Shown here: one piece after another, positions 4,977 to 46,030 of the stretch
Layout: each line of letters opens with the position of its first letter
How positions within the stretch are numbered: the stretch's first letter is position 1
Assembly (NCBI RefSeq): GCF_000156175.1
Contig: NZ_GG692710.1
Span: 326,706 to 390,705, forward strand
Length of the DNA: 64,000 nucleotides
Direction: 5' to 3'
Source: Collinsella intestinalis DSM 13280
GTDB taxonomy: Bacteria; Actinomycetota; Coriobacteriia; Coriobacteriales; Coriobacteriaceae
Position numbers and translations under genes: made by a program
The notes under the pieces: model-generated
What the model was told of the DNA's origin: nothing
The model's input: the letters and a program-made list of their open reading frames with translations, nothing else
Databases searched by the model: none

Positions 4977-6112
4977 GCATCCTCCTCGCCGTCGATCTCG
5001 GCGGACAGCGCCTGGGTGCAGGCAAGGCCCACCTCGAGGATGCGCCTGAACTCGTCGAGCGGGGTGGGTGCGAGGGACGCCGCCCCAATGCCGCGCGGGA
5101 CGACGAGGTCGATGGTCGAGCCGGAGCGTTTCTTGTCGTGCAGCGCCTCGTCGAAGATCTTGTCGGGCGCCGCGTCAAAGGCGAGGGAGAGCCCATGCGC
5201 CTTGATGAGGCGGGCGAGGCGCATGGGCAGTTCCTCGGGGCAGAGCTCGGCGGTGACACTCGCGCTCGCAATGGCGACCATGCCGATGGCGACGCAGGTG
5301 CCGTGGCCGAGACGGTAGCCCTCGGCCGCCTCGACGGCGTGGCCGATGCTGTGACCGAAGTTCAGCAGCTTGCGGATGCCCGCCTCGCGCTCGTCCTGAA
5401 CAACGACGGCACGCTTGATATCGACGTTGCGCGCGATGAGCCAGCAAACGCGTGCGAGGTCCTGCTTGAGCAGGTCGAGGGTGAGGGGCGTCTTCTCAAG
5501 CTCGGCGAACAGCTCGGCGTCTGCGATGAGGGCGTGCTTGATCACCTCGGCACAGCCATCGGCGAACTGCTCGTCGGAAAGGGTGCCCAGGCAACCGGCG
5601 TCGGCGATGACGGCGAGCGGCTGCCAGAAGGCGCCTGCGAGGTTCTTGCCGGCGAAAAGGTCGATGGCGGTCTTGCCGCCCACGGAGGAGTCGACCATCG
5701 CCAGCAAGGTGGTGGGCACCTGGATGTAGCCGATGCCGCGCATGTACGTCGCTGCGACAAAACCCGCGAGGTCGCCCACAACGCCGCCGCCCAGCGCGAT
5801 GATCACGTCGTCGCGCGTGAGCTGCTCTTCGGCCGCGCGCTCGAGAAGCTCGGCATAGGTTGTTGGGTTCTTGCTCTGCTCGCCGGCCTCAAAGGTCGCA
5901 ACGCCCACGGTCAGCCCGGCCTCTTTCAGCCCCTGCTCGACGGGCGCCAGGAACAGCGGGCCGACGTTCGAGTCGGTGATGATGAGTGCGCGCTGGGCCT
6001 GAGGGGCGACCGACTGCGTGATGGCGCCGACCTGCTCCAGAAGAAACGTGCCGATGTGCATCTGATAGGGATGTGCCGTATCGATGTCGAGCGTGTATGC
6101 CGAGGTTGCCAT
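4970..6112 (-). CDS. aroB: 3-dehydroquinate synthase
   Basis: A 380-residue NAD- and metal-dependent enzyme that cyclises DAHP to 3-dehydroquinate (step 2). Motifs include GGGVVGDLAGFVA, PTTLLAMVDSSVGGKTAID, EVIKHALI and the metal-binding LLNFGHSIGHAVE. The chosen ATG at 6112 has AAAGGAC 8 bases upstream and begins a normal-length protein; a longer in-frame extension would run into the DAHP synthase gene. Confidence 0.96.
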   Translation of the reverse strand: MATSAYTLDIDTAHPYQMHIGTFLLEQVGAITQSVAPQAQRALIITDSNVGPLFLAPVEQGLKEAGLTVGVATFEAGEQSKNPTTYAELLERAAEEQLTRDDVIIALGGGVVGDLAGFVAATYMRGIGYIQVPTTLLAMVDSSVGGKTAIDLFAGKNLAGAFWQPLAVIADAGCLGTLSDEQFADGCAEVIKHALIADAELFAELEKTPLTLDLLKQDLARVCWLIARNVDIKRAVVVQDEREAGIRKLLNFGHSIGHAVEAAEGYRLGHGTCVAIGMVAIASASVTAELCPEELPMRLARLIKAHGLSLAFDAAPDKIFDEALHDKKRSGSTIDLVVPRGIGAASLAPTPLDEFRRILEVGLACTQALSAEIDGEEDAC

Positions 6113-7224: not shown

Positions 7225-7301
7225 GCGCCATTAGCTCAGTGGATTAGAGCGTCTGCCTCCGGAGCAGAAGGCCGTAGGTTCGAACCCTATATGGCGCACC
7301 A
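7225..7301 (+). tRNA. tRNA-Arg (anticodon CCG)
   Basis: The acceptor arm GCGCCAT at 7225-7231 pairs with ATGGCGC at 7291-7297, followed by ACCA, so CCA is encoded. The anticodon stem TCTGC/GCAGA encloses loop CTCCGGA with anticodon CCG, reading CGG codons. The T arm contains GGTTCGAACCC. The 3' part overlaps the stop codon of the phage recombinase on the other strand, marking the prophage left end. Confidence 0.97.
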
Positions 7302-17460: not shown

Positions 17461-17925
17461 ATGGAGGGGTGCACGGAACAAGAGTTCACGTGGTCTCCGA
17501 GGCTTACCAGGGCTTTAGAGCGCATACCGGAAGAGCGTCAGGCTGCGCTCTTCCGGGCGCTCGTCCGCTATGGCACCTACGGTATCGAGCCTGAGTTGGC
17601 TTGGCCGCTCGACGCCATATTCGAATCACTCAGAGACTGCATTGATGGCAAGAAAAAGCCGATGCGCGCTCGGAGGTCATCCGGTGCGGAGAGAAAGCCG
17701 CTGCCCCCGCGTATCAGATACGAGGTGCTTGAACGAGACGGCTACACGTGTCAGTACTGCGGCGCGAAAGCGCCAAGTGTCACGCTTCATGTCGACCATA
17801 TCGTTCCGGTTGCCGAAGGCGGCACCGACGACCTGAGCAACCTCGTTGCTGCGTGTGAGTACTGCAACCTTGGCAAGAGCAGCTTGCCGACGTCGAGGTT
17901 TACGGGAGGTGAAAAGAATGGCTGA
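17461..17925 (+). CDS. HNH endonuclease fused to a DUF6291-like domain
   Basis: A 154-residue protein. Residues 1-60 resemble the start of the DUF6291 replisome-organiser domain in the next gene (RIPEERQAALFRALVRYGTYG). Residues 80-145 are an HNH nuclease: YTCQYCG, LHVDHIVPVAEGG, NLVAACEYCN. Such HNH enzymes nick or cut DNA and are often phage-borne. It overlaps the next gene by 8 bases. A recent partial duplication with domain replacement is a possible origin. Confidence 0.85.
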   Translation: MEGCTEQEFTWSPRLTRALERIPEERQAALFRALVRYGTYGIEPELAWPLDAIFESLRDCIDGKKKPMRARRSSGAERKPLPPRIRYEVLERDGYTCQYCGAKAPSVTLHVDHIVPVAEGGTDDLSNLVAACEYCNLGKSSLPTSRFTGGEKNG

Positions 17926-18541
17926 GGCGTTCACGGTGTTCGAGAAGTTCGGCGACGTGTGCGCCGAGCTCAATGAGCAGGATCGAAAGGAGCTTATCTA
18001 CGCGATCAATATGTACGGAATGTTCGGCGAAGAGGTGGAGCTTCCCTACATGCTCAGAGCTCTGTTCATATCGCTCAAGGAGGATATAGACAACTCGAAG
18101 GCCATGCGGTTGCGTGGTTCTAAGGGAGGCCGTCCCAAAAGCAGGCCACAGGTTTCCGAAGCGGTGGAACAAGAGGTTTATGAACTCAAGAAACCAGTGG
18201 TTTCAGAATCGCGTGAACCACTGGTTTCCGATGATCAAGCGATATCGGAAAGCCAATCCAAACCAGACCAAACCAGTCCAGTCCAATCCAAACCAGAGGT
18301 GGTGAAGCGCAAGCGCTTCAAGCCGCCCACCCCGCAGGAGGCGGACGCATACGCGGCGGAGTGGTGCCGGGAGAACGGCTACGACCCTTCGGGGTTCACC
18401 GGTAGCAAGTTCGTCGACTTCTACGCCAGCAAGGGCTGGGTCGTCGGCAAGAGCCCGATGAAGGACTGGAAGGCGGCTGCGAGGAACTGGATCGTGAAGG
18501 ACTGCAGGAAGGGGGCTCGGAATGAGTACAGCGATTTCTGA
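17918..18541 (+). CDS. DUF6291 replisome organiser / replication initiator
   Basis: A 207-residue protein: an N-terminal DUF6291-type helical domain (1-60), a variable linker rich in S, K, P and Q (about 80-125) encoded by short DNA repeats, and a C-terminal domain (PPTPQEADAYAAEWCRENGY, DFYASKGWVVGKSPMKDWKAAARNW) typical of phage replication-initiation proteins. It lies directly before a DnaC-like loader. The ATG at 17918 is preceded by GGGAGGTGAAAAGA. Confidence 0.8.
   Translation: MAEAFTVFEKFGDVCAELNEQDRKELIYAINMYGMFGEEVELPYMLRALFISLKEDIDNSKAMRLRGSKGGRPKSRPQVSEAVEQEVYELKKPVVSESREPLVSDDQAISESQSKPDQTSPVQSKPEVVKRKRFKPPTPQEADAYAAEWCRENGYDPSGFTGSKFVDFYASKGWVVGKSPMKDWKAAARNWIVKDCRKGARNEYSDF
18190..18296. 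repeat. Iteron cluster, candidate phage replication origin
   Basis: Inside the replisome-organiser linker lie an inverted pair (GAAACCAGTGGTTTC at 18190-18204 and GAACCACTGGTTTC at 18215-18228) and CCAAACCAG at 18258, 18268 and 18288, with a degenerate copy CCAGTCCAA in the same 10-bp register at 18278. Phages such as lambda carry the origin within the initiator gene, so this is the best origin candidate in the window. Confidence 0.55.
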
Positions 18542-19547: not shown

Positions 19548-19925
19548 ATGGAATTCAACACCTGCGAGGAGTACGTGCTTGCCGAGCTGGAGAGCGCCCA
19601 GGAGGCCGCCTTCACTCTCAACGAGGAGGTCGAGCGCCTTGAGACCGAGAACCGGCTTCTCAGGGAGCGCCTTGAGGCGCAGCCCGACCCGGTACGGAAG
19701 ACCATCTGCAACGCGGGGCGAGCGCGTATTTTCGACTCATGCACGAACATCTACAAGAGCGTTAAGGACGAGGAGACGTTCGTTCCATTCAAGGACTGGT
19801 GCCTGGAGTGCGTGCTCGGCTTCAATCTGCCCAAGGGAATCTCCAAGACGCAGTTCGTGGAGGAATTCGAGCCGGAGTTCCTTGAGGCCTACAACGAGCG
19901 CCTTGCCGAGGAATCGGAGGTTTAG
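19548..19925 (+). CDS. Acidic coiled-coil protein of unknown function
   Basis: A 125-residue protein with an N-terminal coiled coil (LNEEVERLETENRLLRERLEA) and a helical acidic C-terminus. AGAGGGGAACTGAA precedes the ATG. No family recognised. Confidence 0.65.
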   Translation: MEFNTCEEYVLAELESAQEAAFTLNEEVERLETENRLLRERLEAQPDPVRKTICNAGRARIFDSCTNIYKSVKDEETFVPFKDWCLECVLGFNLPKGISKTQFVEEFEPEFLEAYNERLAEESEV

Positions 19926-19927
19926 CC

Positions 19928-20200
19928 ATGGAGGGGCCTGAGATCATCGAGCGGTACCGGGTGGAGATCGATGAGTTGGAAGCGCGGCGCGACTTCTCCG
20001 GCGCGAACCGCAAGCGCATCGAGATGCACAAGGCCTTGCGGGCCGCGGGCGTCTCCGGCGACATCGGGATGAGCAGATACCAGCGCGAGAAGCACGCGCA
20101 GCGCTTGAAGCGCGCCGGTTGCAGCGCCGAGGAGATCGCCAAGGCCATGGAGGTCAGCGTCTCCGAGGTGCGGTCGCTCATCAAGGGGGCGTCGCGGTGA
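19928..20200 (+). CDS. Small HTH protein
   Basis: A 90-residue protein with a C-terminal helix-turn-helix (HAQRLKRAGCSAEEIAKAMEVSVSEVRSLI) after a charged helical part. Probably DNA-binding; it might be a middle or late gene regulator, which is inference only. Confidence 0.65.
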   Translation: MEGPEIIERYRVEIDELEARRDFSGANRKRIEMHKALRAAGVSGDIGMSRYQREKHAQRLKRAGCSAEEIAKAMEVSVSEVRSLIKGASR

Positions 20201-25148: not shown

Positions 25149-25215
25149 ACCTCGAAGGCCCGCCCCGGGCGATATAGCCGATTTCCCCCCGCATATCTCT
25201 GGGCAATAGGGGGGT

Positions 25216-25236
25216 ATCTCACGCCGCCTATACCAT
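25216..25236 (+). promoter_or_regulatory. Late element A, before terminase genes
   Basis: ATCTCACGCCGC, then CTAT, then ACCAT. The same pattern recurs at 29906 and 43843. It ends 23 bases before the terminase small-subunit ATG, and its CCAT can pair with ATGG at that start through an imperfect hairpin. Role inferred as a phage late promoter or 5' leader control element. Confidence 0.6.
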
Positions 25237-25259
25237 CGCTCCCAACGAAGGGAGGCGCT

Positions 25260-25715
25260 ATGGCCAAGGGCGGACGGGGCGTTTCCATGCCGGATGACAT
25301 CGCTCTAGACCCCGTGCAGAGCGCCATCTGGGAATCGCTGGCCCCGAGCGGAGACAACAACTTCACCAAGCAGGACGTCGAGCCGCTGCGCGAGCTTTGC
25401 TTCTGGCACGCGGTCTTCCGCAGCGCCCAGAACGCGATCTCCAAGGGCGACGGGCGGATCAGCATCTTCGACGCGGTGGGATACAAGCCGTTCAAGTCCC
25501 CGGACGGCAGGAGCCTTCCCATGATGCGCAAGAGCCCCGCGCTCGCGGTGCTCAAGGAGGCGAGCGCGGAGATTCGCGCCCTGTCCGACCAGCTCGGCCT
25601 GTCCCCCAAGAGCCGGGCGGAGGCCAGCGCGCCGCAGAAGCGAACGACGGAGAAGGCGCAGCTTCTGCAGCTCGCAACCTCGCGACCCGCGCCCCGTAGG
25701 GCGGTGGGCGAGTGA
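25260..25715 (+). CDS. terS: Terminase small subunit (P27-like)
   Basis: A 151-residue protein resembling P27-family small terminases: LDPVQSAIWESLAPS start, central helical DNA-binding region (FTKQDVEPLRELCFWHAVFRSAQ) and KSPALAVLKEASAEIRALSDQLGLSPKSRAEA. It recognises the phage genome for packaging. GAAGGGAGGCGCT precedes the ATG. The stop overlaps the large subunit's GTG start. Confidence 0.88.
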   Translation: MAKGGRGVSMPDDIALDPVQSAIWESLAPSGDNNFTKQDVEPLRELCFWHAVFRSAQNAISKGDGRISIFDAVGYKPFKSPDGRSLPMMRKSPALAVLKEASAEIRALSDQLGLSPKSRAEASAPQKRTTEKAQLLQLATSRPAPRRAVGE

Positions 25716-29905: not shown

Positions 29906-29926
29906 ATCTCACGCCGCTAGGACAAT
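29906..29926 (+). promoter_or_regulatory. Late element B, before scaffold and capsid genes
   Basis: ATCTCACGCCGC, then TAGG, then ACAAT, starting 18 bases after the upstream terminator. This position strongly suggests that the element starts a new transcript for the scaffold and capsid genes. The start codon of the scaffold lies 88 bases further on, after a repeat-rich leader. Confidence 0.6.
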
Positions 29927-29935
29927 CCTCCCAAC

Positions 29936-30000
29936 GCGCCGCACGGCGCACATCCAACTAAAGGCCAGCCGCACGGCGGGCCGGGAGCGCCGCACGGCGC
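29936..30000. repeat. Three GC-rich palindromes in the capsid leader
   Basis: GCGCCGCACGGCGC at 29936-29949 and 29987-30000 and GCCGCACGGC at 29968-29977. Each is a dyad around CA. In RNA they would form short stems just before the scaffold ribosome binding site; in DNA they could bind a protein. Confidence 0.75.
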
Positions 30001-30014
30001 GGGAAGGAGCAGCG

Positions 30015-40851: not shown

Positions 40852-41757
40852 ATGGCAGATGCCAAGATATTCAACGTAAGCGGTGGAAACTACAGCATCG
40901 TCGATCAGACCGCACGAGACAACGCGTCAAAAGCCTTGCAGGATGCCGAGTACTCCCGGCTCGAAAGCATCGGCGCCTACCCGGGCCGCAACCTCGCCAC
41001 GGTCTTCGCCGAGGAGATCAAGCAGAAGGCGAACGTCTGGGAATGGCTTCGCGCCCGTGTACGCGCAGCGAATTACTCCGGAATCCGCATAGGCGATTAC
41101 ATCAACGTCGTCATCCCGCAGACGGCGCAAGTGGCCTCCCAAACGGTGAGCTATGCCGTCGGTGCCATCGACCCGTATTTCCAGTGCGGCGATACCGCGA
41201 AGGGGCATCACATCGCGATGGTGCCAAAGTCCACCGTCGCGGTTCGCGGCCCGAATGCCGTGAACGAAAGCTACATCCAGTGGCGGAAGACCGCCGACAA
41301 CAACGGAACGAACGAGCAGAAGTGCCCATACCTCCTGAGCCATCTGCATGAGTGGGAGAACGAGCATTTCTTGTCCGCTCTGCCTGCGGAGGTGCAGGCG
41401 GCCATCATGCCCCATCGCGTCCTCCTTGAGGAACGCTACTCATCCTCCGGCAAGCTCACCGAGCCTTCGGGTTGGTCCTGGCAGGACCTCGGCAAGATCT
41501 GGTCCCTCAGCGAGGTGGAGGTCTACGGCCTGAATGCGTGGAGCAAGCCCGGCTACGGCACTGGCTTCGATTGCCAGTTCCCGATTTTCAAGCAGACAAA
41601 GGACCGCATCATGGGCGGTCGCGTCAATTGGTGGCTGCGGTCGGTGTCCGGCTCGTCCTCGTCCTACGTGTGCTACGTCGGCTACAGCGGGTATGCCACC
41701 TGCTATTCCCCGACGCATGGCTGGGTGCGGCCCCGCCCCTGCTTCCTCGTAGGTTAG
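40852..41757 (+). CDS. DGR target: fibre-tip C-type lectin-fold protein
   Basis: A 301-residue protein. The C-terminal half has the DUF6273/C-type lectin-like pattern: EEYS-type segment ERYSSSGKLTEPSGWSW, then NWWLRSVSG and a final WVRPRPCF. The VR covers residues 256-299. Residues 258, 272, 277, 278, 279, 281, 283, 284, 285, 289, 290 and 297 differ from the template-encoded ones. The conserved WWLRS and WVRPRP parts hold the fold while the loop between them varies. As the fibre tip it would bind the bacterial receptor and change host range. Confidence 0.93.
   Translation: MADAKIFNVSGGNYSIVDQTARDNASKALQDAEYSRLESIGAYPGRNLATVFAEEIKQKANVWEWLRARVRAANYSGIRIGDYINVVIPQTAQVASQTVSYAVGAIDPYFQCGDTAKGHHIAMVPKSTVAVRGPNAVNESYIQWRKTADNNGTNEQKCPYLLSHLHEWENEHFLSALPAEVQAAIMPHRVLLEERYSSSGKLTEPSGWSWQDLGKIWSLSEVEVYGLNAWSKPGYGTGFDCQFPIFKQTKDRIMGGRVNWWLRSVSGSSSSYVCYVGYSGYATCYSPTHGWVRPRPCFLVG
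41618..41746 (+). repeat. DGR variable repeat (VR)
   Basis: A 129-bp copy of the TR lying 728 bases upstream of it. Thirteen bases differ and all thirteen are A in TR: changes go to G, T and C. Outside these sites the two copies are identical, including the GC-rich 3' end GGGTGCGGCCCCGCCCCTG, which acts as the initiation of mutagenic homology. Confidence 0.97.
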
Positions 41758-41772
41758 GCCGTAGGCCTAGCC
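41752..41772 (+). promoter_or_regulatory. Hairpin/cruciform after the VR
   Basis: GGTTAGGCC at 41752-41760, loop GTA, GGCCTAGCC at 41764-41772: nine pairs with one G-T. It starts five bases after the VR and overlaps the target stop codon. In the Bordetella phage DGR a hairpin at the same place is needed for efficient target use. Confidence 0.85.
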
Positions 41773-41790
41773 TATGCGCTACACTTGACG

Positions 41791-41815
41791 ACGCCCCGCC
41801 TTGCGCGGGGCGTTT
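41791..41815 (+). terminator. GC-rich hairpin between target and Avd genes
   Basis: ACGCCCCGC at 41791-41799 pairs with GCGGGGCGT at 41805-41813 around CTTGC, then TT. It has the stem of an intrinsic terminator but only three T, so partial read-through into the Avd/TR/RT unit is likely. Confidence 0.6.
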
Positions 41816-41852
41816 GCCGCGAATGCGGACCGTTGCTGTCGATTGGATCTAT

Positions 41853-42323
41853 ATGAGCGGCGTGCTTGCCAGGAACAGGACATTGTCCCAGTTCGAGTTC
41901 TACCGGAACGCCATCGCCATTCGCGTCGAGGTGAACAGGCTGATGGCGAAGGACAAGGTGTGCCCCAAGGCGTTCCGCCTGCTCAACGGCGTCCCAACGG
42001 TCGAGACGGCGAGGAGCATCGTCTACAACATCAACCGCGCCGACCATTTCTACCCGAACACCAGCGCAAACGTGATAGAGCGGAGGAAGTACATCACGCT
42101 CGCCATCGCCGACTGCGACCAGTTGCTTCAGGACATGCAGTGCCTGATCGCCATGGACGTGACATCGAACGTCAACGTCTTTGAGCGCGTGACCCTCATG
42201 ATCGACAGGGAGATCGAGCTTCTTAAGGGCTATCGCAAATCGGTGAAGCTCACCGGCGCACAGACGCCCGAGCAGAGACTCGCCGCCTTGGAGGAAGAAA
42301 TTGAGCGATTGCGTTCTGTATAA
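41853..42323 (+). CDS. avd: DGR accessory variability determinant (Avd-like)
   Basis: A 156-residue, almost all-helical protein (SQFEFYRNAIAIRVEVNRLMA; CPKAFRLLNGVPTVETARSIV; ERRKYITLAIADCDQLLQDMQ; FERVTLMIDREIELLKGYRKS) fitting the four-helix-bundle Avd family. Avd pentamers bind the RT and TR RNA and are required for template-primed cDNA synthesis. An in-frame ATG at 41823 is an alternative start; neither has a clear ribosome binding site. TR starts 22 bases after its stop. Confidence 0.85.
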   Translation: MSGVLARNRTLSQFEFYRNAIAIRVEVNRLMAKDKVCPKAFRLLNGVPTVETARSIVYNINRADHFYPNTSANVIERRKYITLAIADCDQLLQDMQCLIAMDVTSNVNVFERVTLMIDREIELLKGYRKSVKLTGAQTPEQRLAALEEEIERLRSV

Positions 42324-42345
42324 TGTCCCCGGTCACGCCTTGAAA

Positions 42346-42474
42346 GTCGCATCAATTGGTGGCTGCGGTCGGTGTCCGGCTCGTCCTCGTCCAACGTGTG
42401 CTACGTCAACAACAACGGGAATGCCAACTACAATTCCCCGACGAATGACTGGGTGCGGCCCCGCCCCTGATTCC
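42346..42474 (+). repeat. DGR template repeat (TR)
   Basis: A 129-bp noncoding template. It has 24 adenines, 13 of which are changed in VR. Adenines are concentrated in AAC/AAT codons in the VR frame; mutation of these never creates a stop. Its own final codon in that frame is TGA (42468-42470), which is TGC in VR, so this last position must lie outside or at the edge of the transferred segment. Confidence 0.97.
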
Positions 42475-42673
42475 CTTATCGCCAGACCGAGTAGGCTCGC
42501 CCGAAAGCCGTGCAGAAAGAGGAAGGAAGGCGCGACCATCGGCCACACGGCCGTGAATATGCACCCCGCGCAGAAGGGCGGACGCTTCTTGCATGGTCGG
42601 ACTCTCCGGCGTTCGGTCCGATTTCATGCCCTTTCTGCAAGCGGCTGCGGAGCGCCATTGCTAGCCGTGCGGG
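42475..42673 (+). ncRNA. TR-RT spacer RNA
   Basis: A 199-base noncoding stretch joining TR to the RT gene. In studied DGRs this spacer is part of the TR RNA and folds with RT and Avd to start cDNA synthesis. Here CGACCAT (42533-42539) pairs with ATGGTCG (42593-42599), and GCACCCCGCGC (42561-42571) pairs with GTGCGGGGTGC (42667-42677), enclosing the RT GTG start. The two stems cross each other, a possible pseudoknot. Confidence 0.7.
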
Positions 42674-43843
42674 GTGCCCGACTTGAATTCTGACGAGCGC
42701 CGAGAGGCGAGAAGGGCGAGACGCGCCGAGAAGAGGCGGCGGAACAGAGATTCCCGGATCGAGGGGCTGGACATCGAGGCGGTGGCCGACCTCAACGCGC
42801 TGTACCGCGCCGCGATGCAGGCCGGAAGGGGGGTCTCTTGGAAGGCGTCGATCCAGCGATACCAGAAGGACGTACTCAAGAACATCGTGCGGACTCGCCG
42901 CGACATCCTCGATGGCAACGACCTGCACAGGGGCTTCATCAACTTCGACATCGTGGAGCGTGGCAAGAGGCGCCACATAAGCTCGGTGCACATAGCTGAG
43001 CGCGTCCCGCAGAAAGCGCTGGCGCAAGAGGTCCTTATCCCGGCAACCGTCCCGACCGTGATCGGGGCGAATTCCGCCAACATCAAGGGCAGGGGCACGG
43101 ATTACGCCGTCAGGCTCATGAAGAGGCATCTCGCCGACCACTACCGCAAGCACGGCGCCGAGGGCTACATCCTACAGATGGATTTCCGAGACTACTTCGC
43201 CAGGATCGCGCACGAGCCCCTCAAGAGGCAGCTTTCATCTCGACTCGACGATGGCAGGGTTCTCTCGCTTGCGGAGAGCTTCATCGACGTGCAGGGTGAC
43301 GTCGGGCTCGGACTCGGCAGCGAGCCCAACCAGATATGCGCCGTGGCGTTCCCAAACGCCATCGACCATTTCGTAACCGAGATGTGCGGCGTCGAGGCCT
43401 ACGGGCGATATATGGATGACAGCTACTGCATCCACACGAGCAAGGAGCATCTCGTCATGGTCAAGTCGGCCGTCGAGATACTTTGCGGCGATTACGGAAT
43501 AGAGCTCCATCCGCGCAAGACGCAGATCGTCAAGCTGTCCCACGGGTTCACGTTCCTCAAGAAGAAGTTCTTCTACTCTGAGTCGGGGAGGGTGATCGTG
43601 AGGCCGTGCAGGGACACCATCACGAGGGAGAGGCGAAAGCTCAAGGCCCTCAAGCGGATGCTCGACTCCGGAGACATCACCATGGAGCAGATAGAGCAGC
43701 AGTACCAATCCTGGAGGGGCGGCCTCGTGCACCTCGACGCACACGACACCCTTCTCTCGATGGACGCCCTGTATCGCGAGCTATTCGGAGGGTCTGTGAA
43801 CGGCAACCCCCCCCCCGCAACGGTAGTTAGGATCGCGGCTTAA
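42674..43843 (+). CDS. DGR reverse transcriptase
   Basis: A 389-residue RT, compact as in DGRs. Motif A is QMDFRDYF with Asp170, motif B the DGR-type GLGSEPNQ (213-220), and the catalytic YMDD is at 246-249, followed by FLKKKFFYSESGRV. There is no endonuclease, maturase or RNase H domain. It makes adenine-mutagenic cDNA from TR RNA with Avd. GTG at 42674 or a TTG at 42683, with GGGGTG before it, may start translation. The C-terminus contains a C10 run. Confidence 0.95.
   Translation: MPDLNSDERREARRARRAEKRRRNRDSRIEGLDIEAVADLNALYRAAMQAGRGVSWKASIQRYQKDVLKNIVRTRRDILDGNDLHRGFINFDIVERGKRRHISSVHIAERVPQKALAQEVLIPATVPTVIGANSANIKGRGTDYAVRLMKRHLADHYRKHGAEGYILQMDFRDYFARIAHEPLKRQLSSRLDDGRVLSLAESFIDVQGDVGLGLGSEPNQICAVAFPNAIDHFVTEMCGVEAYGRYMDDSYCIHTSKEHLVMVKSAVEILCGDYGIELHPRKTQIVKLSHGFTFLKKKFFYSESGRVIVRPCRDTITRERRKLKALKRMLDSGDITMEQIEQQYQSWRGGLVHLDAHDTLLSMDALYRELFGGSVNGNPPPATVVRIAA
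43807..43816 (+). repeat. C10 homopolymer near the RT 3' end
   Basis: Ten C follow GGCAA and encode Asn-Pro-Pro-Pro, nine codons before the stop. Length changes would replace the last residues of the RT and could read past the present stop into element C. Confidence 0.85.
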
Positions 43844-43863
43844 TCTCACGCCGCAAATACCAT
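43843..43863 (+). promoter_or_regulatory. Late element C, before the lysis module
   Basis: ATCTCACGCCGC, then AAAT, then ACCAT. It begins at the last base of the RT stop codon and its final CCAT is the first part of the hairpin described next. It starts a separate unit for the carbohydrate-binding and lysis genes. Confidence 0.6.
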
Positions 43864-43895
43864 GGTCGCACCGAAAGAAAGGGGTGCGACCATGG
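43860..43895 (+). promoter_or_regulatory. Perfect 13-bp hairpin burying a start codon
   Basis: CCATGGTCGCACC at 43860-43872 pairs without mismatch with GGTGCGACCATGG at 43883-43895. The loop GAAAGAAAGG and adjoining GG hold the ribosome binding site and the 3' arm contains the ATG at 43892-43894. In RNA the start codon would be closed. The feature strongly suggests translational control of the lysis operon's first gene. Confidence 0.8.
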
Positions 43896-44338
43896 CACTT
43901 ACGGAAGAGGAAGAGTCCGCAATCCGCGGAATCATCGAGATCTACAAAGGGAAGTCCGGCGGCCTATCTGACGATGTGGCAACTTCCGCTTACGGGTTAT
44001 TCCCCGAATTCAATTCCGGCGGCCATACGTATGCCGACGGGGAGCGCGTCAGCCATAGAGGCGTCCTCTACACCTGCATCCAGCCTCATACTTCCCAGCC
44101 CGACTGGGCTCCCGATGTGGCCCACAGCCTGTGGGCCAAGACCATCGAATATGGCGGTTCCGAGAGCGGAAACGACGAGGTTCCGGAGTGGGTGCAACCG
44201 GAGTCCACGAACCCCTACCCGAAGGGCGCTCGCGTGAAGAAGGACGGGAAGGTCTGGGAATCGCTCGTTGACAACAACGTCTGGGTTCCCGGCGCCATAG
44301 GCACCGAGGGCGTCTGGAAGGACGTCACCAATGCCTGA
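43892..44338 (+). CDS. Carbohydrate-binding protein of the lysis module
   Basis: A 148-residue protein with two CBM5/12-like modules: YADGERVSHRGVLYTCIQPH with PDWAPDVAHSLWA (about 50-90), and NPYPKGARVKKDGKVWESL with NVWVPGAIGTEGVW (about 108-145). Such modules bind surface polysaccharide. It may be part of the virion tip or helps lysis. Its start codon is inside a hairpin. The last bases overlap the next gene. Confidence 0.75.
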   Translation: MALTEEEESAIRGIIEIYKGKSGGLSDDVATSAYGLFPEFNSGGHTYADGERVSHRGVLYTCIQPHTSQPDWAPDVAHSLWAKTIEYGGSESGNDEVPEWVQPESTNPYPKGARVKKDGKVWESLVDNNVWVPGAIGTEGVWKDVTNA

Positions 44339-44672
44339 GAACCTAATATGGCAGCTCCTGCCCCAGATCGCGATGCTCTGCATCACGGGGGTCGCCGGGT
44401 GGCTGGGCGGAAAGATTCGCGGCTCCAAGGAGGAGCGCGAGCGCCGTGAGATTCAGCAGCAGGAGGAGCGCGACATGAACCGCCGAATCTTCCGTCTGCT
44501 TCTCCGCTATCGGCTCAAGGACCTGCATGAGTACTACGTCCTCGGTGAGCGCACGTGTCCCGTCGAGGTAAAGCAGGGCATTCAGGAGGTCTATGAGCTC
44601 TACCACGCCCTGGGCGGCAACGGCCAGGGAACCCACATGTACAAGGAGCTCATGGAGCTCCACGTCGCGTGA
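44331..44672 (+). CDS. Membrane-anchored helical protein, holin-like
   Basis: A 113-residue protein with one N-terminal transmembrane segment (IWQLLPQIAMLCITGVAGWLGG) and a long charged helix (KEERERREIQQQEERDMNRRI). Order before the holin suggests a lysis helper, perhaps XhlA-like or an antiholin; not proven. Confidence 0.6.
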   Translation: MPENLIWQLLPQIAMLCITGVAGWLGGKIRGSKEERERREIQQQEERDMNRRIFRLLLRYRLKDLHEYYVLGERTCPVEVKQGIQEVYELYHALGGNGQGTHMYKELMELHVA

Positions 44673-44980: not shown

Positions 44981-46030
44981 ATGGCAATGAACGGAATCGA
45001 CATCTCCAACTGGCAGAAGGGCATCGACCTCGCGGCCGTCCCGTGCGACTTCGTCATCGCGAAGGCCACGCAAGGAACCGGTTACACATCGCCCGACTGC
45101 GTGCGTCAGGTCGAGCAGGCAATGTCGCTCGGCAAGAAGGTCGGCGTCTACCACTACATCGGCGGCCAGGGCGCGGTCTCCGAGATGGACTTCTTCATCG
45201 ACTCCATCAAGAACTGGGTCGGCAAGGCCATGCTCGTCCTCGATTGGGAGCAGGGCGAGAACTCTGCGTGGGGCAACTTGGGCTACCTCGAGCAGTGCAT
45301 CAAGCGCGTCATCGAGCGCGCCGGCATCCCACCCGTGGTCTACTCTTCCGCGTCCGTCTTCCCGTGGGACCTGTGCAAGAAGCACAACTGCGGTGCATGG
45401 GTCGCGCAGTACGCCGACAACAACGCCACCGGCTACCAGGACTCCCCGTGGAACGAGGGTAAGTACGGCTGCATGATGCGACAGTATTCCAGCCACGGCC
45501 GACTTCCCGGGTACGGCGGCAACCTCGACCTGAACAAGTTCTATGGCGACGCCGCCGCTTGGGACCGCTACGCCAATCCCAAGGGCTCAGCTCAGCCCGC
45601 CCCCCAGCCGCAGCCGACCCCTCATCCGACTGCCCCGCAGGGCTCAACCCTCGATCTTGTCGACCGCGTCATGCGCGGCGAGTTCGGTGACGGCGAGGCC
45701 CGCCGTGCCGCTCTCGGCACCCGCTACGACGAGGTGCAGAACTTCATCAACCACATCGACCAGGCGAGCGTCGACACGCTCGTGGCCGAGGTCAAGACAG
45801 GCCGATATGGCAACAACCCCATTCGTGAACGCGTTCTTGGCTCCCGCTACAAGGCCGTTCAGGACAAGATCAACGGGGTTTCGCAGCTGGCGCGCGTCTA
45901 CATCGTCAAGTCCGGAGACACGCTCTCGGGCATCGCGGCGAAGCTCGGCACGACCTATCAGGCGCTCGCCAAGAAGAACGGGATTTCGAACCCGAATCGC
46001 ATCTACGCAGGGCAGAAGATCAAGTACTAG
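44981..46030 (+). CDS. Endolysin: GH25 muramidase with CW_7 and LysM
   Basis: A 349-residue lysin. Residues 1-205 are a GH25 muramidase with Asp7 (GIDISNWQ), Asp88 and Glu90 (VLDWEQ). A Pro/Gln linker follows (206-225). Two CW_7 wall-binding repeats lie at about 227-263 and 267-303 ([42 protein letters not shown]). A LysM ends the protein ([20 protein letters not shown]). It cuts peptidoglycan at the end of the lytic cycle. Confidence 0.95.

Follow-up and report, generated by a model that had tools for sequence, protein, structure and literature searches.

A start-codon hairpin and an overlapping putative late promoter at the lysis module of a Collinsella prophage

Introduction

In a prophage of Collinsella intestinalis DSM 13280, the first gene of the lysis module has its start codon inside a perfect hairpin, and a conserved sequence element ends in the 5' arm of that same hairpin. 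The question raised by this locus is which RNA the hairpin would close to the ribosome: one that begins at the element, or one that arrives from upstream. The analysis covers a window of 64,000 nucleotides (64 kb) from the 1.81 Mb genome, together with related prophages and phage contigs, and the features in the two lists below lie on the forward strand of the window.

The hairpin and its surroundings

Besides the lysis genes, the prophage codes for terminase, portal, protease, scaffold, and head proteins. A tRNA-Arg (CCG) gene at 7225-7301 stands at its left end (IMG/VR call, inferred start about 7287) and is a likely attachment site. The features around the hairpin are as follows:

41618-41746, forward: variable repeat of the retroelement
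42346-42474, forward: template repeat of the retroelement
42477-42697, forward: RT-2 RNA (RF03077, 131.9 bits)
42674-43843, forward: reverse transcriptase (RVT_1) of a diversity-generating retroelement; the stop codon at 43841-43843 runs into element C
43860-43895, forward: hairpin, with 5' arm 43860-43872, loop 43873-43882, and 3' arm 43883-43895
43878-43884, forward: Shine-Dalgarno sequence AAAGGGG of the carbohydrate-binding gene
43892-44338, forward: carbohydrate-binding (CBM_5_12) gene, which opens the lysis module and has its start codon base-paired within the hairpin
44331-44672, forward: small open reading frame, overlapping the carbohydrate-binding gene by 8 nt
44687, forward: ATG of a Dp-1-type holin with its own Shine-Dalgarno sequence
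44981-46030, forward: GH25 endolysin

The hairpin consists of CCATGGTCGCACC-GAAAGAAAGG-GGTGCGACCATGG (arm, loop, arm), with 13 perfect pairs and a loop of 10 nt, as an earlier note on this DNA had described it. That note had also placed the ribosome site in the loop and the start codon in the stem; indeed, five of the seven Shine-Dalgarno bases lie in the loop and two in the stem, and the ATG (43892-43894) falls within the 3' arm. The gene it had named as carbohydrate-binding does carry a CBM_5_12 domain. The hairpin begins 16 nt after the stop codon of the reverse transcriptase, and no terminator was called in the interval between the two genes.

Such a structure is unlikely to arise by chance. 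Perfect inverted repeats with arms of at least 13 and loops of 3-20 number two in the 64-kb window, against a first-order Markov expectation of 0.055 per 64 kb, and at least one was present in 4% of 200 simulated windows. The second of them, at 18190-18228 (GAAACCAGTGGTT..., loop 13), lies inside an open reading frame at 17846-18541. Of the 258 starts called automatically in seven prophages, none has a local folding energy or folding z below that of the carbohydrate-binding gene (-26.9 kcal/mol and -6.9, respectively). No Rfam family scored above threshold at the hairpin, where the one chance match lay far below its gathering score, and a DNA search of 43300-44340 against phage records gave no match.

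The neighboring retroelement is complete (40852-42697), comprising a DUF6273 target gene with the variable repeat, the template repeat, the RT-2 RNA, and the reverse transcriptase. All 13 of the 13 differences between the variable and template repeats are at template adenines, so that a reverse transcriptase is accompanied by template and variable repeats differing only at these positions, the hallmark of a diversity-generating retroelement.

The element as a putative late promoter

The element follows the 21-nt pattern ATCTCAC-N8-nACnnT. Its core, TCTCACGCCGC, has three copies in the genome, all on the forward strand (window positions 25217, 29907, and 43844) and all at the start of a late module:

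25216-25236, forward: element A, with an imperfect hairpin at about 25233-25263 that covers the start of the terminase small subunit gene (Shine-Dalgarno sequence, and ATG at 25260)
29906-29926, forward: element B, before the scaffold gene, with a long leader and no hairpin at the start codon
43843-43863, forward: element C, putative late promoter, with box ATCTCACGCC from 43843 and -10 sequence TACCAT at 43858-43863
43870, forward: predicted start of the late RNA, an A 7 nt after the -10, among the three 3'-most bases of the 5' arm

Element C thus runs into the 5' arm of the hairpin and overlaps it from 43860 onward. Of 247 genomes examined in the order, 5 contain the strict pattern, with 8 matches, all forward. 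Seeding with ATCTCACG alone, which leaves the -10 unselected, gave 22 forward and 3 reverse copies in eight prophage stretches, and in 20 of the 22 forward copies the two key positions of the -10 are A and T. The spacing between box and -10 is constant, the distance from -10 to ATG runs from 20 to 34, and no -35-like conservation was seen upstream of the box. A pyrimidine-purine step follows the -10 by 7-8 nt in 17 of 19 sites, and none of the other offsets among the 15 compared scores as high (19 of 20 sites were counted, the G048 copy at 5465 being left out).

Judged by the generally known rules for -10 sequences and spacing, the fixed distance between box and -10, the strand bias, and the pyrimidine-purine step lead to the reading of the element as a promoter with its start near 43870, and it looks like a late promoter. 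In T4 middle promoters, a box for the activator MotA replaces the -35 at a fixed spacing from the -10. The element resembles them in having a box in place of the -35 at fixed -10 spacing, with a different box sequence.

A search for the putative activator in the window and in related prophages yielded none. A phage sigma factor was considered for this role and set aside: the small protein encoded at 19928-20200 is weakly similar to sigma region 4 and has a relative only in G013. This protein is a possible late regulator. For phrog_3282 there was no match at the positions of the other prophages, and the open reading frame at 19548-19925, conserved in five prophages, matched no family.

Copies of the element in related phages

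The element precedes the terminase small subunit gene in the window, G063, G013, G024, G004, and L206 (six of 12 terminase loci have it just upstream), and the scaffold gene in the window, G063, G013, G024, and G004. It stands after the reverse transcriptase and before the next late genes in the window, G063, G048, and G004, the last of which has a reverse transcriptase remnant. Two further genes, one of which is ParB-like, have a copy before them in G048 and G005. Among the matches listed in the search of viral contigs, nearly all look like chance, and the leader is present in L070 and L134; IMG/VR copies of the same prophage (L208, L212, L033/L070, L213, L214, and L032/L134) were not recounted. 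Host matches to ATCTCACCCGCTGGGCACAAT, one sequence repeated across many genomes and apparently coding, were not used.

Two further structures accompany these copies. Between element B and the scaffold gene, the leader (29927-30014) contains three small GCCGCACGGC hairpins, at 29938, 29968, and 29989, a number for which shuffling predicts none. Two or three copies of GCCGCACGGC also occur in the scaffold leaders of G063, G013, and G004, and one, together with similar hairpins, in that of G024; a leader with repeated hairpins of this kind is possibly protein-binding. Just before element A, adjoining an HNH gene, lies an inverted repeat of a C-run and a G-run (CCCCCC...GGGGGG, 25185-25215), likewise placed in front of the terminase-start element in most relatives; it may be part of a cos site.

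Pairing of starts with their own upstream arms

At element A the CCAT of the element pairs with the ATGG of the terminase start, as the earlier note had observed, and CTCCC additionally pairs with GGGAG. From these two loci the note had drawn a common logic of translational control, a suggestion that finds support, and does so at many loci of related phages. In most of the 15 sites with short leaders, the stretch that runs from the -10 to about +3 is complementary to the Shine-Dalgarno sequence or the start region and pairs with it, by a different sequence each time. The arms are CCCTTCGCT/AGCGAAGGG at G063-C and GCGCAC/GTGCGC at G048-C, and two sites that precede the same gene have CCATGCcGCC/GGCaGCATGG (G048-P) and CCATACG..CCCC/GGGG..CGTATGG (G005-P).

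This pairing was assessed by exchanging the 5' segments between sites, with the 15 of 22 element sites that have a Shine-Dalgarno sequence and start close by; five B sites, G048-2, and G005-2 were left out. The native pairing was matched by 1 in 100,000 permutations. The value was 1.2e-4 when the site of the carbohydrate-binding gene was removed, 2.4e-4 for nine non-homologous starts, and 1.8e-3 for nine non-homologous starts and without that site. Five of the 15 sites (G013-H, G024-A, G004-A, G004-C, and G005-M) pair no better than average swaps. At G048-M (L185 position 15390) the hairpin is followed by TTTTT just before the ATG, and it could act as a terminator of read-through RNA while also covering the Shine-Dalgarno sequence.

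Cost of opening the ribosome site

According to folding calculations, the Shine-Dalgarno sequence and/or the AUG are paired in RNA that enters from upstream. Opening the stretch from the Shine-Dalgarno sequence through the AUG at element C costs 22-27 kcal/mol in read-through RNA versus 7-11 in RNA from 43870. Removing everything before the predicted start lowers the opening cost of the ribosome site at all 15 of 15 sites, from a mean of 15.0 to 5.7. The mean relief is 9.3 kcal/mol at element sites versus 1.7 in 242 control starts (p 2e-7), and the relief at the carbohydrate-binding gene, 17.5, exceeds that of all 242 controls (maximum 12.4). The mean unpaired probability of the ribosome site did not separate element sites from controls (p 0.06; the 15 starts of this comparison included two loose pattern matches, G048 9868 and G063 9600), and the Shine-Dalgarno sequence at element C is not less exposed in read-through RNA (0.57 versus 0.43 in late RNA). 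In these models, the lock at element C bears on the AUG and on the cost of opening.

A second box class

Four phage contigs bearing a reverse transcriptase (L216, L217, L220, and L222) also have a hairpin at the gene that follows it, and a GCGACRC box stands there at the same distance from a -10-like AnnnT as the ATCTCAC box does. An earlier swap test of this class used six hairpin-bearing sites and found the native arrangement to be the best of 720 permutations. Since the choice of hairpin-bearing sites was biased, the test was repeated with four further sites: all ten candidates, some without hairpin, gave p 1.6e-4, and eight sites, with two doubtful starts taken out, gave 3.5e-4. L252 was dropped from the class as probably coding.

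A hairpin at the start that follows the reverse transcriptase is not universal. For 63 distinct starts after reverse transcriptases of diversity-generating retroelements the mean z was -0.61, and 11 of the 63 lay below -2, six of those with a T-run. At the corresponding place, an intrinsic terminator is present in relatives with the carbohydrate-binding gene (L019, L022, and L023) and at other reverse transcriptase loci (L218, L219, and L221).

Proposed mechanism

Taken together, it is probable that element C is a late promoter, made up of an activator box and a -10, that starts RNA within the 5' arm, with the hairpin silencing read-through RNA and the late RNA being translated. Read-through RNA, begun at the reverse transcriptase gene or the structural genes, would carry the whole hairpin, so that the start region of the carbohydrate-binding gene would be buried and hardly translated. 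RNA from element C would begin at about 43870 and lack ten of the thirteen bases of the 5' arm; the hairpin then could not form, and the start would be open and translated. In this way the hairpin would convert the choice of promoter into translation or its absence. The start of the terminase gene in the window would be guarded likewise, as would several starts of late genes in related phages. The next open reading frame, with its overlap of 8 nt, may be translationally coupled to the carbohydrate-binding gene; the lock would act on the first gene only, the holin having its own Shine-Dalgarno sequence.

The earlier note had held that an RNA starting at or before the element would have its ATG locked. 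The premise of such a start was not supported, as the element has the features of a promoter and a predicted start at 43870. With that start inside the 5' arm, the logic is probably the reverse: read-through RNA is locked and RNA from element C is open. The predicted start is close to the condition that the note itself had named against its reading, a start inside the loop. A start in the arm would leave the hairpin useful, as a filter on read-through RNA alone.

Alternative explanations

The account closest to that of the earlier note, in which the 5' end of the late RNA lies at the element or upstream of it and the hairpin keeps the gene off until a protein, a ribosome, or a small RNA opens it, would suit a hairpin of such stability and an element conserved at several starts. 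It is nonetheless unlikely, given that the element itself looks like a promoter, that the 5' arms fall between the -10 and about +3, a placement without reason if the RNA starts upstream, and that the hairpins share no common trigger sequence. Another possibility is an operator in the DNA, with the inverted repeat bound by a dimeric regulator of the promoter. The repeat is palindromic and, counted from the putative start, reaches from -10 to about +26, but the arm sequences differ completely between sites while their pairing is kept, and a common operator would keep its sequence; we regard this explanation as very improbable.

Equally little credence is given to the hairpin as a terminator or attenuator of the retroelement transcript. 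The terminators that relatives carry at the corresponding place speak for it, yet the G+C-rich stem followed by a T-run that marks an intrinsic terminator is not what is seen here: no T-run comes after the stem, no terminator was called, and among the 15 leaders only G048-M has a T-run beside its stem. Finally, the pairing could be a functionless byproduct of a C-rich promoter start region, complementary to any Shine-Dalgarno sequence, and positions -6 to -1 are indeed C-rich, also at B sites without a close Shine-Dalgarno sequence. This is hardly credible, as swap tests that keep composition still gave 1e-5 to 1.8e-3 (1.6e-4 in the second class) and a perfect 13-bp stem is rare.

Relation to known systems

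The proposed gating by a late promoter inside the 5' arm has its closest likeness in bacteriophage T4. In the long upstream RNA of the T4 genes e (lysozyme), soc, 49, and I-TevI, the Shine-Dalgarno sequence and/or AUG is buried in a helix, and in the e-type arrangement a late promoter lies within the 5' strand of the helix, so that its transcripts lack this strand (PMC3014915). The likeness to gene e extends to the start-burying helix, the late promoter in the 5' strand (here a putative one, by motif, through the overlap of element C with the 5' arm), and the function in lysis (PMC3014915). T4 uses the late promoter TATAAATA with gp55, whereas element C consists of TACCAT and an ATCTCAC box with a putative activator; for this reason the locus is described as working like the T4 system, and no membership by descent or homology is claimed. 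Unlike T4, the phages concerned are temperate siphophages of Coriobacteriia, in which the arrangement is found at terminase and other starts and beside a retroelement. The gating in T4 was shown by experiment; that in Collinsella is proposed here from computation, which shows the motif, its fixed spacing, the hairpins, the own-arm pairing, and the relief in energy, from which we infer promoter function, start site, read-through, the effect on translation, and an activator.

In the homing endonuclease genes mobE of Aeh1 and segB of T4, a hairpin likewise hides the ribosome site in upstream transcripts (PMC2988022); those are free-standing endonuclease genes, whereas the genes concerned here serve late structure or lysis. 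Retroelements have also been described in prophages of Eggerthella lenta, in a report where the word promoter does not occur (PMC8778435). In a literature search, with subscription journals mostly outside its range, gating of this kind was not found reported for phages of Coriobacteriia or for genes next to a retroelement.

Implications

A wider rule for Coriobacteriia siphophages may be put forward tentatively, with more doubt than confidence. The genes at the entry of late modules (terminase, head region, and lysis) would each have a private hairpin whose 5' arm is written in the late promoter, with ATCTCAC and GCGACRC boxes acting alike, and only RNA begun there would be translated; the reverse transcriptase could then be transcribed in the lysogen, diversifying a tail protein, without expression of the lysis module.

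The element is a candidate late promoter for Collinsella prophages, and the combination of hairpin and box offers a practical signature for late promoters in phages without RNA data. If the proposed mechanism is true, temperate phages that infect common gut bacteria and are unrelated to T4 would also use the T4 lysozyme trick, at several genes, and it would allow a retroelement to be transcribed beside lysis genes without killing the lysogen.
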